DNA of 28,514 nt from a virus. Position 1 is the stretch's first letter; each line of letters begins with the position of its first letter. This document shows, in pieces, positions 1,635 to 26,102 of the stretch. The DNA lies in the IMG/VR virus record IMGVR_UViG_3300042288_002168, positions 1-28,514 of that record; one strand, 5' to 3'. A model generated the notes under the pieces. It was not told the DNA's origin. It worked only from the letters and a program-made list of their open reading frames with translations, and did no database searches. The translations under genes were made by a program, and so were the position numbers.

Positions 1635-2162
1635 CTACGGCTGTTTTTTCTCAATTTTGTACCACACACCACTAGACTTCTTGAATTTGAATCCATAAGC
1701 CTGTCGTGGCAATTGAGGCATATCCAAAATTTCTAGTAATTCTTCCTTGGTTCGCTCCCAACCATTAGCTGCGTGTTCATCTAATCGTCGCAACATTTCA
1801 TCAGGGTGAGGACGATTAAACTGAGAAGCTACAGCCATCAAAAAGTCTTGATTACTGGGAATAATATCATCTATAGGTATACCTATAGATTCACCAACCC
1901 GTTCAGTTTTGTATTCTGCTACTGTTTCCATGTCGGCATAATTATAATTAAATTCTGCCATTACTTTACCACTTTTTAAATGCTCATGCAAAGCGTCTAA
2001 TATCTCTACTTGATATTGATAAATGTATGATTTCCTCTTATCTCCAGGCTGTTTAAATGTTTTAATTCTTAAATAGTTTAACCTGTTATTCAAAGTCTGA
2101 TCTGATATTCCATACTTAGCTTCAAGCGATCGCAGAAGTACAGGAGTATTATTGAGTTCCAT
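1635..2162 (-). CDS. Helix-turn-helix DNA-binding protein, probable phage regulator
   Basis: The 175-residue product starts with a segment (residues about 8-45, including LRSLEAKYGISDQTLNNRL) that reads as a MerR/excisionase-like helix-turn-helix. A basic stretch KQPGDKRKSYIY and a helical region follow. The C-terminal half (about 100-175) is a charged domain I do not recognise. The start ATG at 2160-2162 follows a weak AGGGTG-type ribosome site. The gene sits alone between two terminators. A 20-bp dyad (TCTATAG, 6 nt, CTATAGA) lies at 2210-2229 just upstream, and a perfect 20-bp palindrome with the same arms lies inside the gene at 1870-1889, which suggests autoregulation. DNA binding is inferred; the target is not shown. 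Confidence 0.6.
   Translation of the reverse strand: MELNNTPVLLRSLEAKYGISDQTLNNRLNYLRIKTFKQPGDKRKSYIYQYQVEILDALHEHLKSGKVMAEFNYNYADMETVAEYKTERVGESIGIPIDDIIPSNQDFLMAVASQFNRPHPDEMLRRLDEHAANGWERTKEELLEILDMPQLPRQAYGFKFKKSSGVWYKIEKKQP
1870..1889. promoter_or_regulatory. Perfect 20-bp palindrome inside the HTH gene
   Basis: TCTATAGGTATACCTATAGA is its own reverse complement. It shares its seven-base arms and total length with the dyad in the upstream region of the same gene. Confidence 0.55.
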
Positions 2163-2209
2163 GCCGACACCCTAGTTATTGTAAGTACAGGATATCATGA
2201 GTTGGTGTT

Positions 2210-2229
2210 TCTATAGTTATATCTATAGA
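2210..2229. promoter_or_regulatory. Operator-like dyad upstream of the HTH gene
   Basis: TCTATAG and CTATAGA flank a 6-nt centre. It lies 48 bp upstream of the HTH gene's ATG and next to the terminator of the preceding gene, as expected for an operator of that gene. Confidence 0.5.
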
Positions 2230-3462: not shown

Positions 3463-3687
3463 CTAGTCGGCATCATCAGAATAATCTGGGCTATCCCCAG
3501 TTATTAGCTCAAATATTTCTTCAGCTATCATCAGAGATTGTCTTTCTCTTGGGTCATCAAGGGGTTCTTTTCTGAAGAAATAGCCAGGCTCTTGTCTTTT
3601 AACACCGTGCATACGCATATACACAATATTGGAAATATCCTCAACAAACTCTCTTTGTGTACAGTCAAATTCCATGTCAATTTTCAT
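3463..3687 (-). CDS. Hypothetical protein, 74 residues, acidic C-terminus
   Basis: The start ATG overlaps the end of the PadR-like gene by 11 bp, a sign of translational coupling. The product is short and ends in an Asp-rich tail (SPDYSDDAD). Residues about 10-30 and 50-65 look helical. No motif is recognised. It may work with the PadR-like regulator made from the same transcript, but nothing in the sequence proves this. Confidence 0.5.
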   Translation of the reverse strand: MKIDMEFDCTQREFVEDISNIVYMRMHGVKRQEPGYFFRKEPLDDPRERQSLMIAEEIFELITGDSPDYSDDAD

Positions 3688-3973
3688 TCACTTTCTCCCA
3701 ATTATTTAGCTTTTCAAAACCTTCATTAATCGCGCTCAAAGTATCAATTCCCAACTCAGTCAATTTGTAGTAATCGCGGACAGTTCCGTTGGCTGCTTCA
3801 GTGAGTCTAGATACTAGCTTTTCTTTTCGTAATCGCCGCAGGGATGGATATAAAGTACCTTCCCTGATATGGCGATCGCAGCACTCAAGTAATGCCTTAG
3901 CTATTTCCGCCCCGTACATTTCTCTGTGTGCGATCGCTCTTAAAATTAATTCTTCAGACGGTGACAATTTCAT
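3677..3973 (-). CDS. PadR-family transcriptional regulator
   Basis: The 98-residue protein is a winged helix of PadR type: an N-terminal helix pair with MYGAEIAKAL (19-28), then the diagnostic REGTLYPSLRRLRKEKLV (37-54) including the recognition helix, and a wing ending in DYYKLTELG (67-75). It has only a short C-terminal helix, so it belongs to the small PadR type that dimerises through its last helix. It lies 3 bp after the gene at 3977-4354 and overlaps the next gene by 11 bp. It probably represses a nearby promoter; the effector is unknown. Regulators of this kind are usual cargo on mobile elements. Confidence 0.85.
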   Translation of the reverse strand: MKLSPSEELILRAIAHREMYGAEIAKALLECCDRHIREGTLYPSLRRLRKEKLVSRLTEAANGTVRDYYKLTELGIDTLSAINEGFEKLNNWEKVNEN

Positions 3974-5853: not shown

Positions 5854-6177
5854 ATGATTGACATTCAAAGATTCATTGATTCTGACAACTATAAAACGGT
5901 TGGATATTTCACCAAATCTCATGTAGAAACGAATGAGTTTTTAGAAGCTGCAATAGAAGCATGGGAGGATGAAAATGATTCAGATGAGTTTGTATGCTTG
6001 TTTGCAGCAAGTGATGTTAAGCATGAATATTGGAAAGTAATGAATGACGAAGAAATAGAGGATGAAGGAGTAGGCGATGATGACTTAGAAGAATATTATT
6101 CTTTGTCGAATGATTCAGATCCTCGCTCATTCCCAGTTACCGTAATCTTTTCGGACAAAAGTTACAAGGTAAGATAA
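5854..6177 (+). CDS. Hypothetical acidic protein, 107 residues
   Basis: The start is supported by GAGGAA 10 bases upstream. The protein is very acidic, with clusters such as EDENDSDEF and DEEIEDEGVGDDDLEE, and ends in a short beta-like segment. Such charge is common in DNA-mimic or protein-sequestering phage products, but no specific similarity is seen, so function is left open. It is followed directly by the HU-like gene. Confidence 0.55.
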   Translation: MIDIQRFIDSDNYKTVGYFTKSHVETNEFLEAAIEAWEDENDSDEFVCLFAASDVKHEYWKVMNDEEIEDEGVGDDDLEEYYSLSNDSDPRSFPVTVIFSDKSYKVR

Positions 6178-9046: not shown

Positions 9047-12000
9047 CTCAATAATCCTCTGTTTCTAAATAATTTGTCAAACTCAGGCAATATATTCGCG
9101 TTAAACTCTTTCTCGTCCCAATGCCCATTTCCAAAATCTCTGCTTGTTTTAGCAAGAAGGGTTTGCTTTAATTCTTCATTTCCTGATTTTGTTACAATAT
9201 ACTGTGTATATGCTCTAGCAAAAACTTCTGAAGGATCTAAGAGGTAATCTGCGTGTTGTCTCCATCTTCTTTGCCCAACCTCATCTATTCTCTTGATCGC
9301 ATCAGAATTTCTTAATGCGTTCATTAATGGTGACATATCTGGCACTTCTTCCTTGGCTTGGTTTATTAGATTGTTATATACTCCCTGATCATTATATCGT
9401 GTGACAAAAGTGCCATAACGTTTGTTATCTCCAAATAAAAGTAAATCAATTGTATGCCCCATTTCGTGAATAGTATGAGTTTGCGTAAGTAATTCATTTT
9501 CTTTCTTCCCAATATTTTTGTCATCTCTATTTTTTACAGATTGGACATTTATTTGTAAGGTGTTAAAGGATATATCGGCAATACCATTTTCCCCTTTTTT
9601 CCCGGATGTTTGTACCATTCCACCTGTAATACCAGAATCATCAATTTTATTAATATCAATTTCAACTAACTTTGACTCTAATTCTTCAAGAGAATGAACT
9701 CGATTAATTGTATCTAGTGACGCAGAAATAGCCGATTTAGCAATTTCGACAGCTTCTTTAAACTCTGGAGCTTTTGCTGAGTCTGTTACATAGATATCAG
9801 GAGCGTAAGGAATTGCTTCTTGTTCAGCCTTAACTTCCTGTTCACGTTTAACTCGTTCTTGTTCAGCCTTAACTTCCTGTTCACGTTTAATACGTTCTTG
9901 TTCAGCCTTAACTTCCTGTTCACGTTTAATACGTTCTTGTTCAGCCTTAACTTCCTGTTCACGTTTAATACGTTCTTGTTCAGCTTTAGCTTCCTGCTCA
10001 CGTTTAACTCGTTCTTGTTCAGTTCTGGCTTTAGCTTCTTGTTCTGCCTTGGCTTTAGTTTTTTCGATTTCTGGATCTGGATTTCCGTTGCCCGAATTAC
10101 CTGGAGTAGAACCACCTCCGCGACCTGCTAAAGCTAGTGCAGCCACACCTCCAGCTATTCCTAATGCTGCTACCCCACCTGCTACAGCTAATCCTATCCC
10201 TGCACCATTAGGTTTAGATTTATTCTTTTCAGGGTTATTACTTGGCTTGGATTCAGGAGAACGTAGCGATTTAGGAGGATTTTTACGCCAATAGCCACCA
10301 CCTTTAGCTTCTTTGTTGCTAACCCAGTGATATCCTTTACGCTCATTTACCCTAGAGTCCTCACGGCTTTCTCTGTTCCACTTGTAAGTTAAAACATCTT
10401 GGCTTGAACCTTTTTTAATCCCAAATTTATAAGTCCCATATTCGCTAGAAAACTCACCAAAAATATTACCGTTGCCAGCTACAGTCCAGTTATCTAAGCT
10501 AGATATTTTCTCTGGATAAATAGAACTAATTGCATCAGTAATATTCTTGTCATTGACTACATTGATTTGGCGATCGCCACTCAACACTTTAGTCCCAGTA
10601 TCAATTTCTGGGACACTACAACCGCAGTTGTCTTGACGATAAACGCTTAATTCATCAGGTTTGATTGGCTCAATACCACCAAATCTACTAGCACCAGCAT
10701 GATAAATAAAATTGCTCCTAACATCTTCAGGTGTCCTAAATCCTATAAAGTATTTGTCCTCATCATAAAATCCGGTTTTAGGGTCTAATTGTCTGACTTT
10801 GTAACCGTTGGAAGATTTTAAATCATCCCCCACATAAACATCAAGAGCTTTTTTATCAGGAGCATCACCATAAGAACCACGAATATGCCCATAACCACAT
10901 TTCATCGGTTCACTCATGGGAAAACGCACATCCCCGGCTTCATGAGTTAAACCAATGCTGATGTTATTCCAGTTGAGAACTTTCTTGGGACGGGAATAAC
11001 TACTGGCATTTAACTCATCTGCAAATCCGCCAACGCCCATTGCATCATATTTAGCACTACCATCAGCAGGTTCATTGGGATTCCATAAATCTTTGACAGC
11101 CCAATAAGCAGGACTAAATTTATCTTTATAAGCAGGTTTTCCGTCCTTAGTTCTTACTTCCTGCATCCTCGCTAAAAAACTTTTCTTGGCTTCTGGTGAG
11201 TAATTGTGTTTGTAACCTTCTGCTCCATAATGAACCAAAGCAACTTGATTGCCTTCCTTAGCTAAAACCATTCGTTTCTTACCAGCGCGATCGCTGGGCA
11301 TTGGATTATCTGGTTGCCACCATTTGCCAAGGTAAAATACTTTCCCGTCTTTCTGCTTGAGATTGGAAATATCTACAGCATCGGCACGGTAATCATAGGA
11401 ATCCTGTTGAACTTCCTCTGGAGGTAATTCTTCCGATGGTGCTTGTTCTTCAGGGAATCCACCATAGCCACCATAGGGATCTTGCGCTTGCTGCTTGGCT
11501 TCATCCTGTTGTTTCTTGAATAAAGAATCATCAAGGGTAGTTTCAATAGAGAACCCAGACTTACCAAATCGGGATTTTCTCACTTCCTCAATCAACAACA
11601 CTCCAGCAGAAATATAAGTCTGATCAGTTGATGCCATTGTAGCCATGTTTGAGATTTTTTCAGCTTCACTCTCAACCATGAGATTGTGAAACTTAATACT
11701 CCATCCCTTAATTAATTCCCCCTTGGTCGGTCCCTCTTTACTCAGGAATATTAGTTTGAATAATCCGCGTAATTTCTTCCTCCACTTGCTAGTTTGGAAA
11801 TCAGCGATCGTTGAAGCCCAATCTTTTTGCTCACTTTCACCAGATGCTCCTAAACCTGATGGAGATTCACCAAATAGTTTAGTGTGAGGAATATCAGAAA
11901 CACCAATAAAATTGTCTCTTTGTTGGTTTGCAACTTCGGGAACACCTGCAAAATTTCTGCTGATAAATTCCATAGATTCTTTTTCGGCATCTATGATCGC

Positions 12001-25379: not shown

Positions 25380-26102
25380 ATGACAGACAACAGAGATCGA
25401 ATCATAGAATCACTAAAAAGTCAAGTTGCAGAACTTAAAAAAACAGCCGAGCTATTAGTTGAGTTAAATCAAAATAGCCAAGACGCTATTAATAACCTAA
25501 AAAACTATTTTGATAATTCTCAGAAAATTTTGGCTAAATTGCAGTTAAGCAATAACAACGCAATTAATAGCGGCATTGAGTGCCAAAAATTAGAAACTAA
25601 ATTAGTTGAGGTTGATCAATCCGATATCCCACCAACTAGCACTCCACCAACTTCTAAACCACCAACAAACACTCCACCAACTAGCACTCCACCAACTTCT
25701 AAACCACCAACAAACACTCCACCAACTTCTAAACCACCAACTAGCACTCCACCAACTTCTAAACCACCAACTAGCACTCCACCAACTTCTAAACCACCAA
25801 CTAGCACTCCACCAACTAGCACTCCACCAACTTCTAAACCACCAACAAACACTCCACCAACTTCTAAACCACCAACAAACACTCCACCAACTTCTAAACC
25901 ACCAACTAGCACTCCACCAACTTCTAAGCCACCAACAAACACTCCACCAACTAGCACTCCACCAACTTCTAAACCACCAACAAACACTCCACCAACTAGC
26001 ACTCCACCAACTTCTAAACCACCAACAAACACTCCACCAACTTCTAAACCACCAACAAACACTCCACCAACTAGCACTCCACCAACTCAGTCCACTAAAT
26101 AA
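25380..26102 (+). CDS. Coiled-coil protein with 30 Pro/Thr-rich pentapeptide repeats
   Basis: The 240-residue protein has a helical N-terminus (about 1-75) that looks like a coiled coil (ESLKSQVAELKKTAELLVEL). Exactly 30 pentapeptides (residues 84-233) follow, of three kinds: PPTST, PPTSK and PPTNT. The tail is PPTQSTK. Such a rod would be extended and could be glycosylated or act as a spacer. There is no signal peptide or membrane segment. The DNA units are nearly identical, so copy number probably changes easily. GCAGG/AACAGGA-like bases precede the ATG. It lies between two long hairpins (25312 and 26111) and before the gene trio at 26154-27442. Confidence 0.7.
   Translation: MTDNRDRIIESLKSQVAELKKTAELLVELNQNSQDAINNLKNYFDNSQKILAKLQLSNNNAINSGIECQKLETKLVEVDQSDIPPTSTPPTSKPPTNTPPTSTPPTSKPPTNTPPTSKPPTSTPPTSKPPTSTPPTSKPPTSTPPTSTPPTSKPPTNTPPTSKPPTNTPPTSKPPTSTPPTSKPPTNTPPTSTPPTSKPPTNTPPTSTPPTSKPPTNTPPTSKPPTNTPPTSTPPTQSTK
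25629..26078. repeat. 15-bp minisatellite, 30 units of three types
   Basis: Units are CCACCAACTAGCACT, CCACCAACTTCTAAA and CCACCAACAAACACT in a mixed order with ABC triplets recurring. Only one synonymous change is seen (AAG for AAA at about 25928). The frame is kept through all units. Confidence 0.95.

Follow-up and report, generated by a model that had tools for sequence, protein, structure and literature searches.

The window, i.e., the whole stretch of 28,514 bases that was analyzed, represents a 28.5-kb fragment of a virus whose near relative is Aphanizomenon phage vB_AphaS-CL131 (MG209611), the only phage record that was found with two queries. Here, a small gene, P0001, follows a phage tail completion gene and is associated with two copies of an inverted repeat (Table 1). 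At this locus, the window and CL131 are 89% identical across 901 bases. The orthologue gp024 of CL131 is 95% identical to P0001, occupies the same position after the Neck1 gene and is annotated as a hypothetical protein; beyond CL131, six further viral contigs encode P0001 as well. In the accessible sections of the CL131 paper, genes for an integrase, an excisionase and a repressor are given as absent, and its authors suggest that lytic infection dominates (PMC6293099).

Table 1. Features at the P0001 locus, in window positions.
Feature	Position	Strand	Remarks
Gene P0001	1635-2162	minus	175 aa, ATG at 2162; orthologue of CL131 gp024
N-terminal HTH-like segment, codons 13-36	2055-2126	minus	from family alignment; residues track the site sequence across the family
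Linker-coding stretch, codons 72-119, containing the internal site	1806-1949	minus	boundaries chosen by the authors from the family alignment
Internal dyad TCTATAG-N6-CTATAGA	1870-1889	no strand	TCTATAGGTATACCTATAGA; palindromic across all 20 bp; codons 92-98
Extended internal element, TTGGTGnn + dyad	1870-1897	minus	flank at 1897-1890
Upstream dyad	2210-2229	no strand	TCTATAGTTATATCTATAGA; perfect 7-bp arms, 6-bp spacer
Extended upstream element, TTGGTGnn + dyad	2202-2229	plus	orientation opposite to the internal element
Terminator-like hairpin between Neck1 gene and upstream dyad	2240-2261	minus	
Terminator-like hairpin 3' of the P0001 gene	1547-1576	minus	
Gene preceding P0001: phage tail completion / Neck1 (Phage_tail_S)	2326-2760	minus	

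P0001 appears to consist of an N-terminal HTH-like segment followed by a linker and a C-terminal HTH-like domain. Searches with P0001 itself gave no HTH match in Pfam and no match in Pfam or NCBIfam that would indicate kinship with the LacI family, while a profile search against solved structures returned nothing below E 0.3. The fold model, which was built from seven close sequences, is poor (pLDDT 47.8). A scan of 1480-2420 for sigma-70-like promoters revealed none on the strand of the P0001 gene and a single promoter-like site at 2275, on the plus strand.

The original prediction had placed two matching 20-bp dyads, one of them a perfect palindrome, upstream of and within this gene at a distance of about 340 bp. 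Both are present, the internal one is fully palindromic and the spacing is 340 bp. Throughout the window TCTATAG-N6-CTATAGA has exactly these two exact matches, and none occurred in 100 dinucleotide shuffles of the window. Relative to the start of the P0001 gene the dyads begin at -66 and +274, and the upstream dyad ends 47 bp ahead of the ATG with its center approximately 57 bp before the start codon. When up to three mismatches were allowed, one additional match with three mismatches appeared at 5938-5957, which is explained by chance since the shuffles contain 1.74 such matches on average. Furthermore, each dyad is flanked on one side by TTGGTG-nn, a feature not mentioned previously. This flank is asymmetric and gives the two elements opposite orientations. 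The sequence TTGGTRNNTCTATAG has nine matches in the window at up to two mismatches, of which only those at 1883-1897 (minus strand) and 2202-2216 (plus strand) are free of mismatches.

Conservation in relatives, on which the prediction would stand or fall, was assessed in an alignment of eight sequences, the window and seven relatives, and only part of the claim held. Five of the eight (window included) have an exact internal dyad and in the other three it carries one mismatch, so that the window and 7/7 relatives keep it with at most one mismatch. Around it the amino acids vary, as do three of the six spacer columns. Within the gene, the 13 of 14 half-site columns that are kept are equalled by 130 of 509 windows of the same size; the conservation of the internal half-sites is therefore not exceptional within the lineage and was not used as proof. 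Of the upstream dyad, the half CTATAGA together with a TTGGTR flank is kept in all eight sequences. The other half, in contrast, reads CCAATAG with two mismatches in 7/7 relatives, CL131 with its gp024 among them, and is perfect in the window only.

A third exact copy of the dyad is located where a RusA-like gene ends (stop codon or 3' end), in 7/7 records found to carry this gene, namely CL131, the five contigs L005-L009 and one further contig of 60 kb. Here, the dyad adjoins a rusA-xre pair, which includes a small Xre-like regulator. In CL131 it lies 3.4 kb away; three genes separate the HTH gene from this dyad, and they are missing in L005. In L005-L009 the RusA-like gene follows P0001 directly, and no RusA gene is present within the available part of the window and of the contig L004. 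At up to two mismatches, CL131 has the dyad at four places, compared to two for a backwards control. As a side observation, the stretch between the P0001 stop and the RusA-end dyad in L005 (5526-5600) may, judged by eye in the L005 group, be a remnant of the end of a lost gene.

Outside of this lineage the dyad alone is not distinctive. In viral contigs the bare dyad was found in at least 120 stretches, and among the matches listed only records of this phage lineage carry two or more. A role as a host motif was rejected, as the extended motif (at most one mismatch, counted by hand) occurs four times in 388 cyanobacterial genomes of the order covered, more rarely than its backwards control (18). 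In the same 388 genomes there is one RusA homologue.

By profile similarity, P0001 is assigned to an unnamed cyanobacterial family that is found on many plasmids and some chromosomes. A profile of the eight lineage proteins (A2) detected distant homologues in 40/388 cyanobacterial genomes, with a best E-value of 2.1e-13. A 22-member profile is matched by 63 full-length members, among which are the proteins of the window, CL131, L004, L005 and L006. Three of these five sit in the seed of that profile, and the independent support for membership is given by the lineage-only profile A2. A wider profile matched 118/386 genomes, where many of the matches are to proteins of about 300 residues and cover nothing but the C domain. 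In the family, the N-terminal HTH-like segment follows the pattern L..RYGI.RSALYNRLK.L.I, the linker is variable and the C-terminal domain gives weak matches to HTH families. With E ≤ 0.01, 12 of 22 members match HTH_17; for two of them the position of the match is given, and it falls into the C domain. A scan of viral contigs with the family member L281 gave no relative. In the literature covered, mostly open-access and including the accessible part of a study on cyanobacterial plasmid Rep proteins (PMC10899382), no description of the family or of its layout was found.

A tblastn search with the member L258 matched 52 plasmid records, 31 of them over at least 80% of the query, and for the member L281 these numbers were 40 and 33. 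The plasmids that carry a family gene include pSYSM of Synechocystis PCC 6803 and range down to 13 kb in size. In total, 15 plasmid records were examined, of which 13 were whole; on six of these 13 (15-36 kb) a separate CyRepA1 replication gene is annotated. The neighborhood of the gene is hardly shared: in a comparison of ten loci (with no family ORF listed at L292), common neighbors were present within two pairs of near relatives, plus a few isolated matches. The pairs L286/L287 and L288/L291 lie in long contigs, at places common to two genomes, and no plasmid genes are evident nearby.

Several further features of these records were observed. A gene annotated as a tyrosine-type or 'site-specific' integrase is present on 11 of the 15 plasmid records (L346-L348, L350-L356 and L358), and plasmid pANACY.06 (L348, 19038-20072) carries a protelomerase-family gene though it is recorded as circular. 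In L353 a PadR gene is located after the family gene, and the plasmid in L355 carries two PadR genes in addition to it; the window itself contains the gene of a PadR-like regulator at 3677-3973 (E 5.6e-15). In L250 (1836-2088), the N-terminal extension of a related protein corresponds to a 33-bp DNA repeat of 7.6 copies, perhaps an array of sites that is read as protein.

In many homologues, the linker repeats palindromes such as TGTCCACTGGACA that also stand immediately ahead of the start codon. This layout was analyzed by a motif-free approach in which words from the 150 bp upstream of each gene were sought in its N-coding, linker-coding, C-coding and downstream DNA. HIP1 (GCGATCGC) was masked, and a permutation of the upstream regions among the members (300 permutations) served as a control. 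The member set was derived from 88 matching ORFs, of which 25 were dropped to give the 63 full-length ones, and removal of 16 with at least 80% identity left 47; its loci are the best-scoring matches together with a hand-picked set and not a random draw. The window and L004-L006 are among the 16 removed and are represented by CL131. In CL131 the upstream dyad is imperfect and the sole shared 10-mer is not the dyad, and the family test is therefore independent of the pair found in the window.

Upstream and linker-coding DNA share 144 9-mers, compared to a mean of 31 and a maximum of 65 after permutation. For the other regions the counts stay below the permuted maximum, with 31 (maximum 33) for N-coding, 28 (34) for C-coding and 33 (41) for downstream DNA. 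The same is seen on the level of members, since 32/47 share a 9-mer with their linker-coding DNA (permuted maximum 22), compared to 12/47 (17) for N-coding, 17/47 (20) for C-coding and 15/47 (15) for downstream DNA. Without masking of HIP1 the N-coding 9-mers slightly exceed the permuted maximum (35 vs. 32). With 8-mers, downstream DNA does so as well (89 vs. 81), and a weaker downstream signal may therefore exist. Shared 10-mers amount to 36 words in 23 members, with median positions of -30 (10-90%: -77 to -18) and +261 (224 to 310), within the limits of the regions searched. No shared 9-mer was found in 15/47 members, some of which belong to a clade with the upstream palindrome only. In the 15 plasmid records, seven of 19 family ORFs have shared words, all located at the gene. 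Elsewhere on the records of these seven there are zero to four further 9-base matches, and the UHCC 0302 plasmid has a single 11-base match. No shared word is present for the remaining 12 ORFs, among which are those of Synechocystis and Synechococcus elongatus. The upstream-plus-inside layout is thus a trait of part of the family only, and the palindromes differ.

Matched perfect dyads, in the same or reverse-complement form, are present in five of the 47 members, 305 bp (L281), 313 bp (L296), 306 bp (L258), 324 bp (L310) and 261 bp (L301) apart, and near-matching pairs in L306 and L323. A search of 13 genomes for TGTCCASTGGACA gave six places, of which two form the L296 pair, two are at known members and two (L297, L298) have no member within 3 kb. 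L296 had been picked for its dyad pair and was then found to encode a family member missing from the matches of the first profile search. In L281 the linker sites form an array with a period of 21 bp and 4.6 units. The half-sites GGACA/TGTCC occur in the linkers in all three reading frames, used unevenly, and the constraint is therefore likely to act on the DNA and not on the peptide.

The palindromes or shared words differ between subfamilies, with GTCCACTGGAC, GTTCACCGAAC, GTCTGCCAGTCAG, GTACAGTGTAC and TAGACACT in others and TCTATAG in the window. For the 47 members, the sharing of words between the upstream region of one member and the linker DNA of another was compared pairwise with protein identity. 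Site sharing correlates with the HTH residues 13-36 (r 0.24-0.29), and this persists in partial correlation (partial r 0.21-0.22), where p 0.001 is the lowest value that 1000 permutations can give. For the C domain (raw r 0.06-0.14) and the remaining part of the N domain (raw r 0.13-0.20), the partial r is no higher than 0.05 (p ≥ 0.12). With N-coding DNA replacing linker DNA as a control, a weak signal remains (partial r 0.07-0.08, p 0.013-0.018), and a small part of the correlation may therefore reflect common ancestry. That the encoded HTH-like protein would read both dyads, as had been proposed for the window, is in this way supported by comparison: the layout recurs with other palindromes, and site similarity follows the N-terminal HTH residues.

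Based on these comparisons, we consider it probable, though by no means certain, that the two dyads are cognate operators of P0001 and mediate dual-site autorepression from the upstream and the linker-coding site. Here, a P0001 dimer would bind each dyad through its N-terminal HTH. With the upstream operator in the promoter or leader and the second one in the linker-coding DNA, P0001 would repress its own transcription, either by a loop of about 340 bp that bridges both operators or by a block of initiation at one and of elongation at the other. In this phage lineage, the dyad copy at which the convergent RusA-like gene ends would serve as a third operator and be part of the same regulon. Looping, the mechanism favored by the original prediction, is plausible. 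The distances of 261-340 bp between the two sites would allow a loop, and a roadblock, promoter occlusion or a partition-type complex would fit as well. gp024 of CL131 would then be a candidate DNA-binding regulator.

Dual-operator autorepression and repression loops are well-known from the purR, lac and gal systems of E. coli. Similar to these, a candidate operator at the promoter would be paired with a second one within the transcribed gene, at a distance of a few hundred bp. In contrast to them, P0001 has no LacI-family match, the internal candidate operator is found in linker codons and the candidate operators are specific for subfamilies. The layout points to proteins that would regulate or anchor themselves via sites inside their own genes. 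Since the known sites are nearly all within the own gene, the protein would need a further purpose.

Such a purpose is offered by the best rival to autorepression, which by analogy is a centromere-like partition site of the StbA/KfrA type. In a single-protein stability system of this kind, the P0001-type protein would tether, pair or spread the replicon and autoregulation would be a by-product; for the phage, one would have to assume a plasmid-derived gene that was either retained for a plasmid-like stage or co-opted for a different function. We regard this as unlikely, yet several observations are in line with it: the many plasmid records that carry the family (52 and 40 for the two queries), the separate CyRepA1 gene on 6/13 whole plasmids of 15-36 kb, the shared words at the gene with few matches elsewhere on the plasmid record, and the one linker with a 21-bp-period array. 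According to the accessible parts of the respective studies, StbA (PMC3098194) and KfrA (PMC7783346) act on repeats or a repetitive operator and are needed for plasmid stability. The StbA/stbDRs system of R388 resembles the present family as a plasmid DNA-binding protein with a repeat set at its own gene, but differs, as far as the available text describes it, by direct 9-bp repeats upstream of the stbABC operon and by sites in four other promoters (PMC3098194), whereas the family here is solitary and has palindromes also inside the gene. KfrA of RA3 is likewise a plasmid-encoded DNA-binding protein that has a repetitive operator and contributes to plasmid maintenance, and is described in the part consulted as an alpha-helical coiled-coil protein (PMC7783346), in contrast to the second HTH-like domain and the internal site found here. 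Against a centromere-like function speaks the lytic infection suggested as dominant for CL131 in the accessible sections of its description (PMC6293099). Furthermore, L286/L287 and L288/L291 are located in long contigs at shared places without evident plasmid genes, and many members have just one upstream and one internal site.

The location of the sites within the gene, in its linker-coding middle part, together with the iteron-like array in L281, would also fit an internal replication origin, where the sites are iterons read by the initiator that is encoded around them. The lambda O and RepA_N genes are initiator genes with internal origin iterons. Nevertheless, the separate CyRepA1 gene on 6/13 whole plasmids, a second class of sites just upstream of the start and the location of the DnaD-like, helicase and beta-clamp genes elsewhere in CL131 make an origin very unlikely. 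The same low probability is given to another protein as the reader of the dyads, e.g., a host factor or the small Xre-like regulator beside RusA, whose rusA-xre pair the third dyad adjoins. This is opposed by the recurrence of the layout beside family members with unshared neighbors, by the scarcity of the extended motif in the 388 cyanobacterial genomes (4, below the 18 of the control) and by the site sequence, which tracks the family's own HTH. Even less probable are two readings that were rejected. RNA hairpins acting in the transcript would be in line with the good folding of both window sites (z -2.6 and -3.2), but the upstream hairpin is lost in CL131 (z 0.22) and L005 (z -0.56). Since one half of the upstream dyad and its flank stay constant while the fold is lost, DNA recognition fits better. 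As sites of a site-specific recombination, the dyads with their short inverted arms and 6-bp spacer would move neighboring modules, such as the three genes that separate the RusA-end dyad from the HTH gene in CL131 and are missing in L005. However, it is the stop codon of the HTH gene, and not any dyad, at which the alignment breaks, and the spacers differ among the dyad copies.

Individual cases of operators inside regulator genes are known. In the present case the arrangement recurs across a family, in linker codons and with several different operator sequences. The family therefore offers many candidate pairs of protein and site from which a recognition code might be learned, possibly orthogonal repressors for cyanobacteria, and a candidate explanation, open to testing, of the coexistence of several plasmids in one cyanobacterium. 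A wider and rather doubtful scenario would be that the phage acquired a gene of a widespread plasmid family, in which the linker exists at the DNA level for the protein's own sites, the gene serves both as a regulator and as a centromere-like locus, and protein and site co-diverge. If true, a private recognition code per replicon would set plasmid identity (incompatibility) in cells with many plasmids.

Apart from the P0001 locus, the window contains three repeat regions. A 132-bp tandem repeat (2.4 copies, 95% matches) at 1-322 is cut by the end of the record, and a 39-bp tandem repeat (5.3 copies, 95% matches) at 9817-10022 is located within an ORF of 1277 residues. An array of 30/45/75-bp units at 25629-26087 is rich in CCACCAAC.
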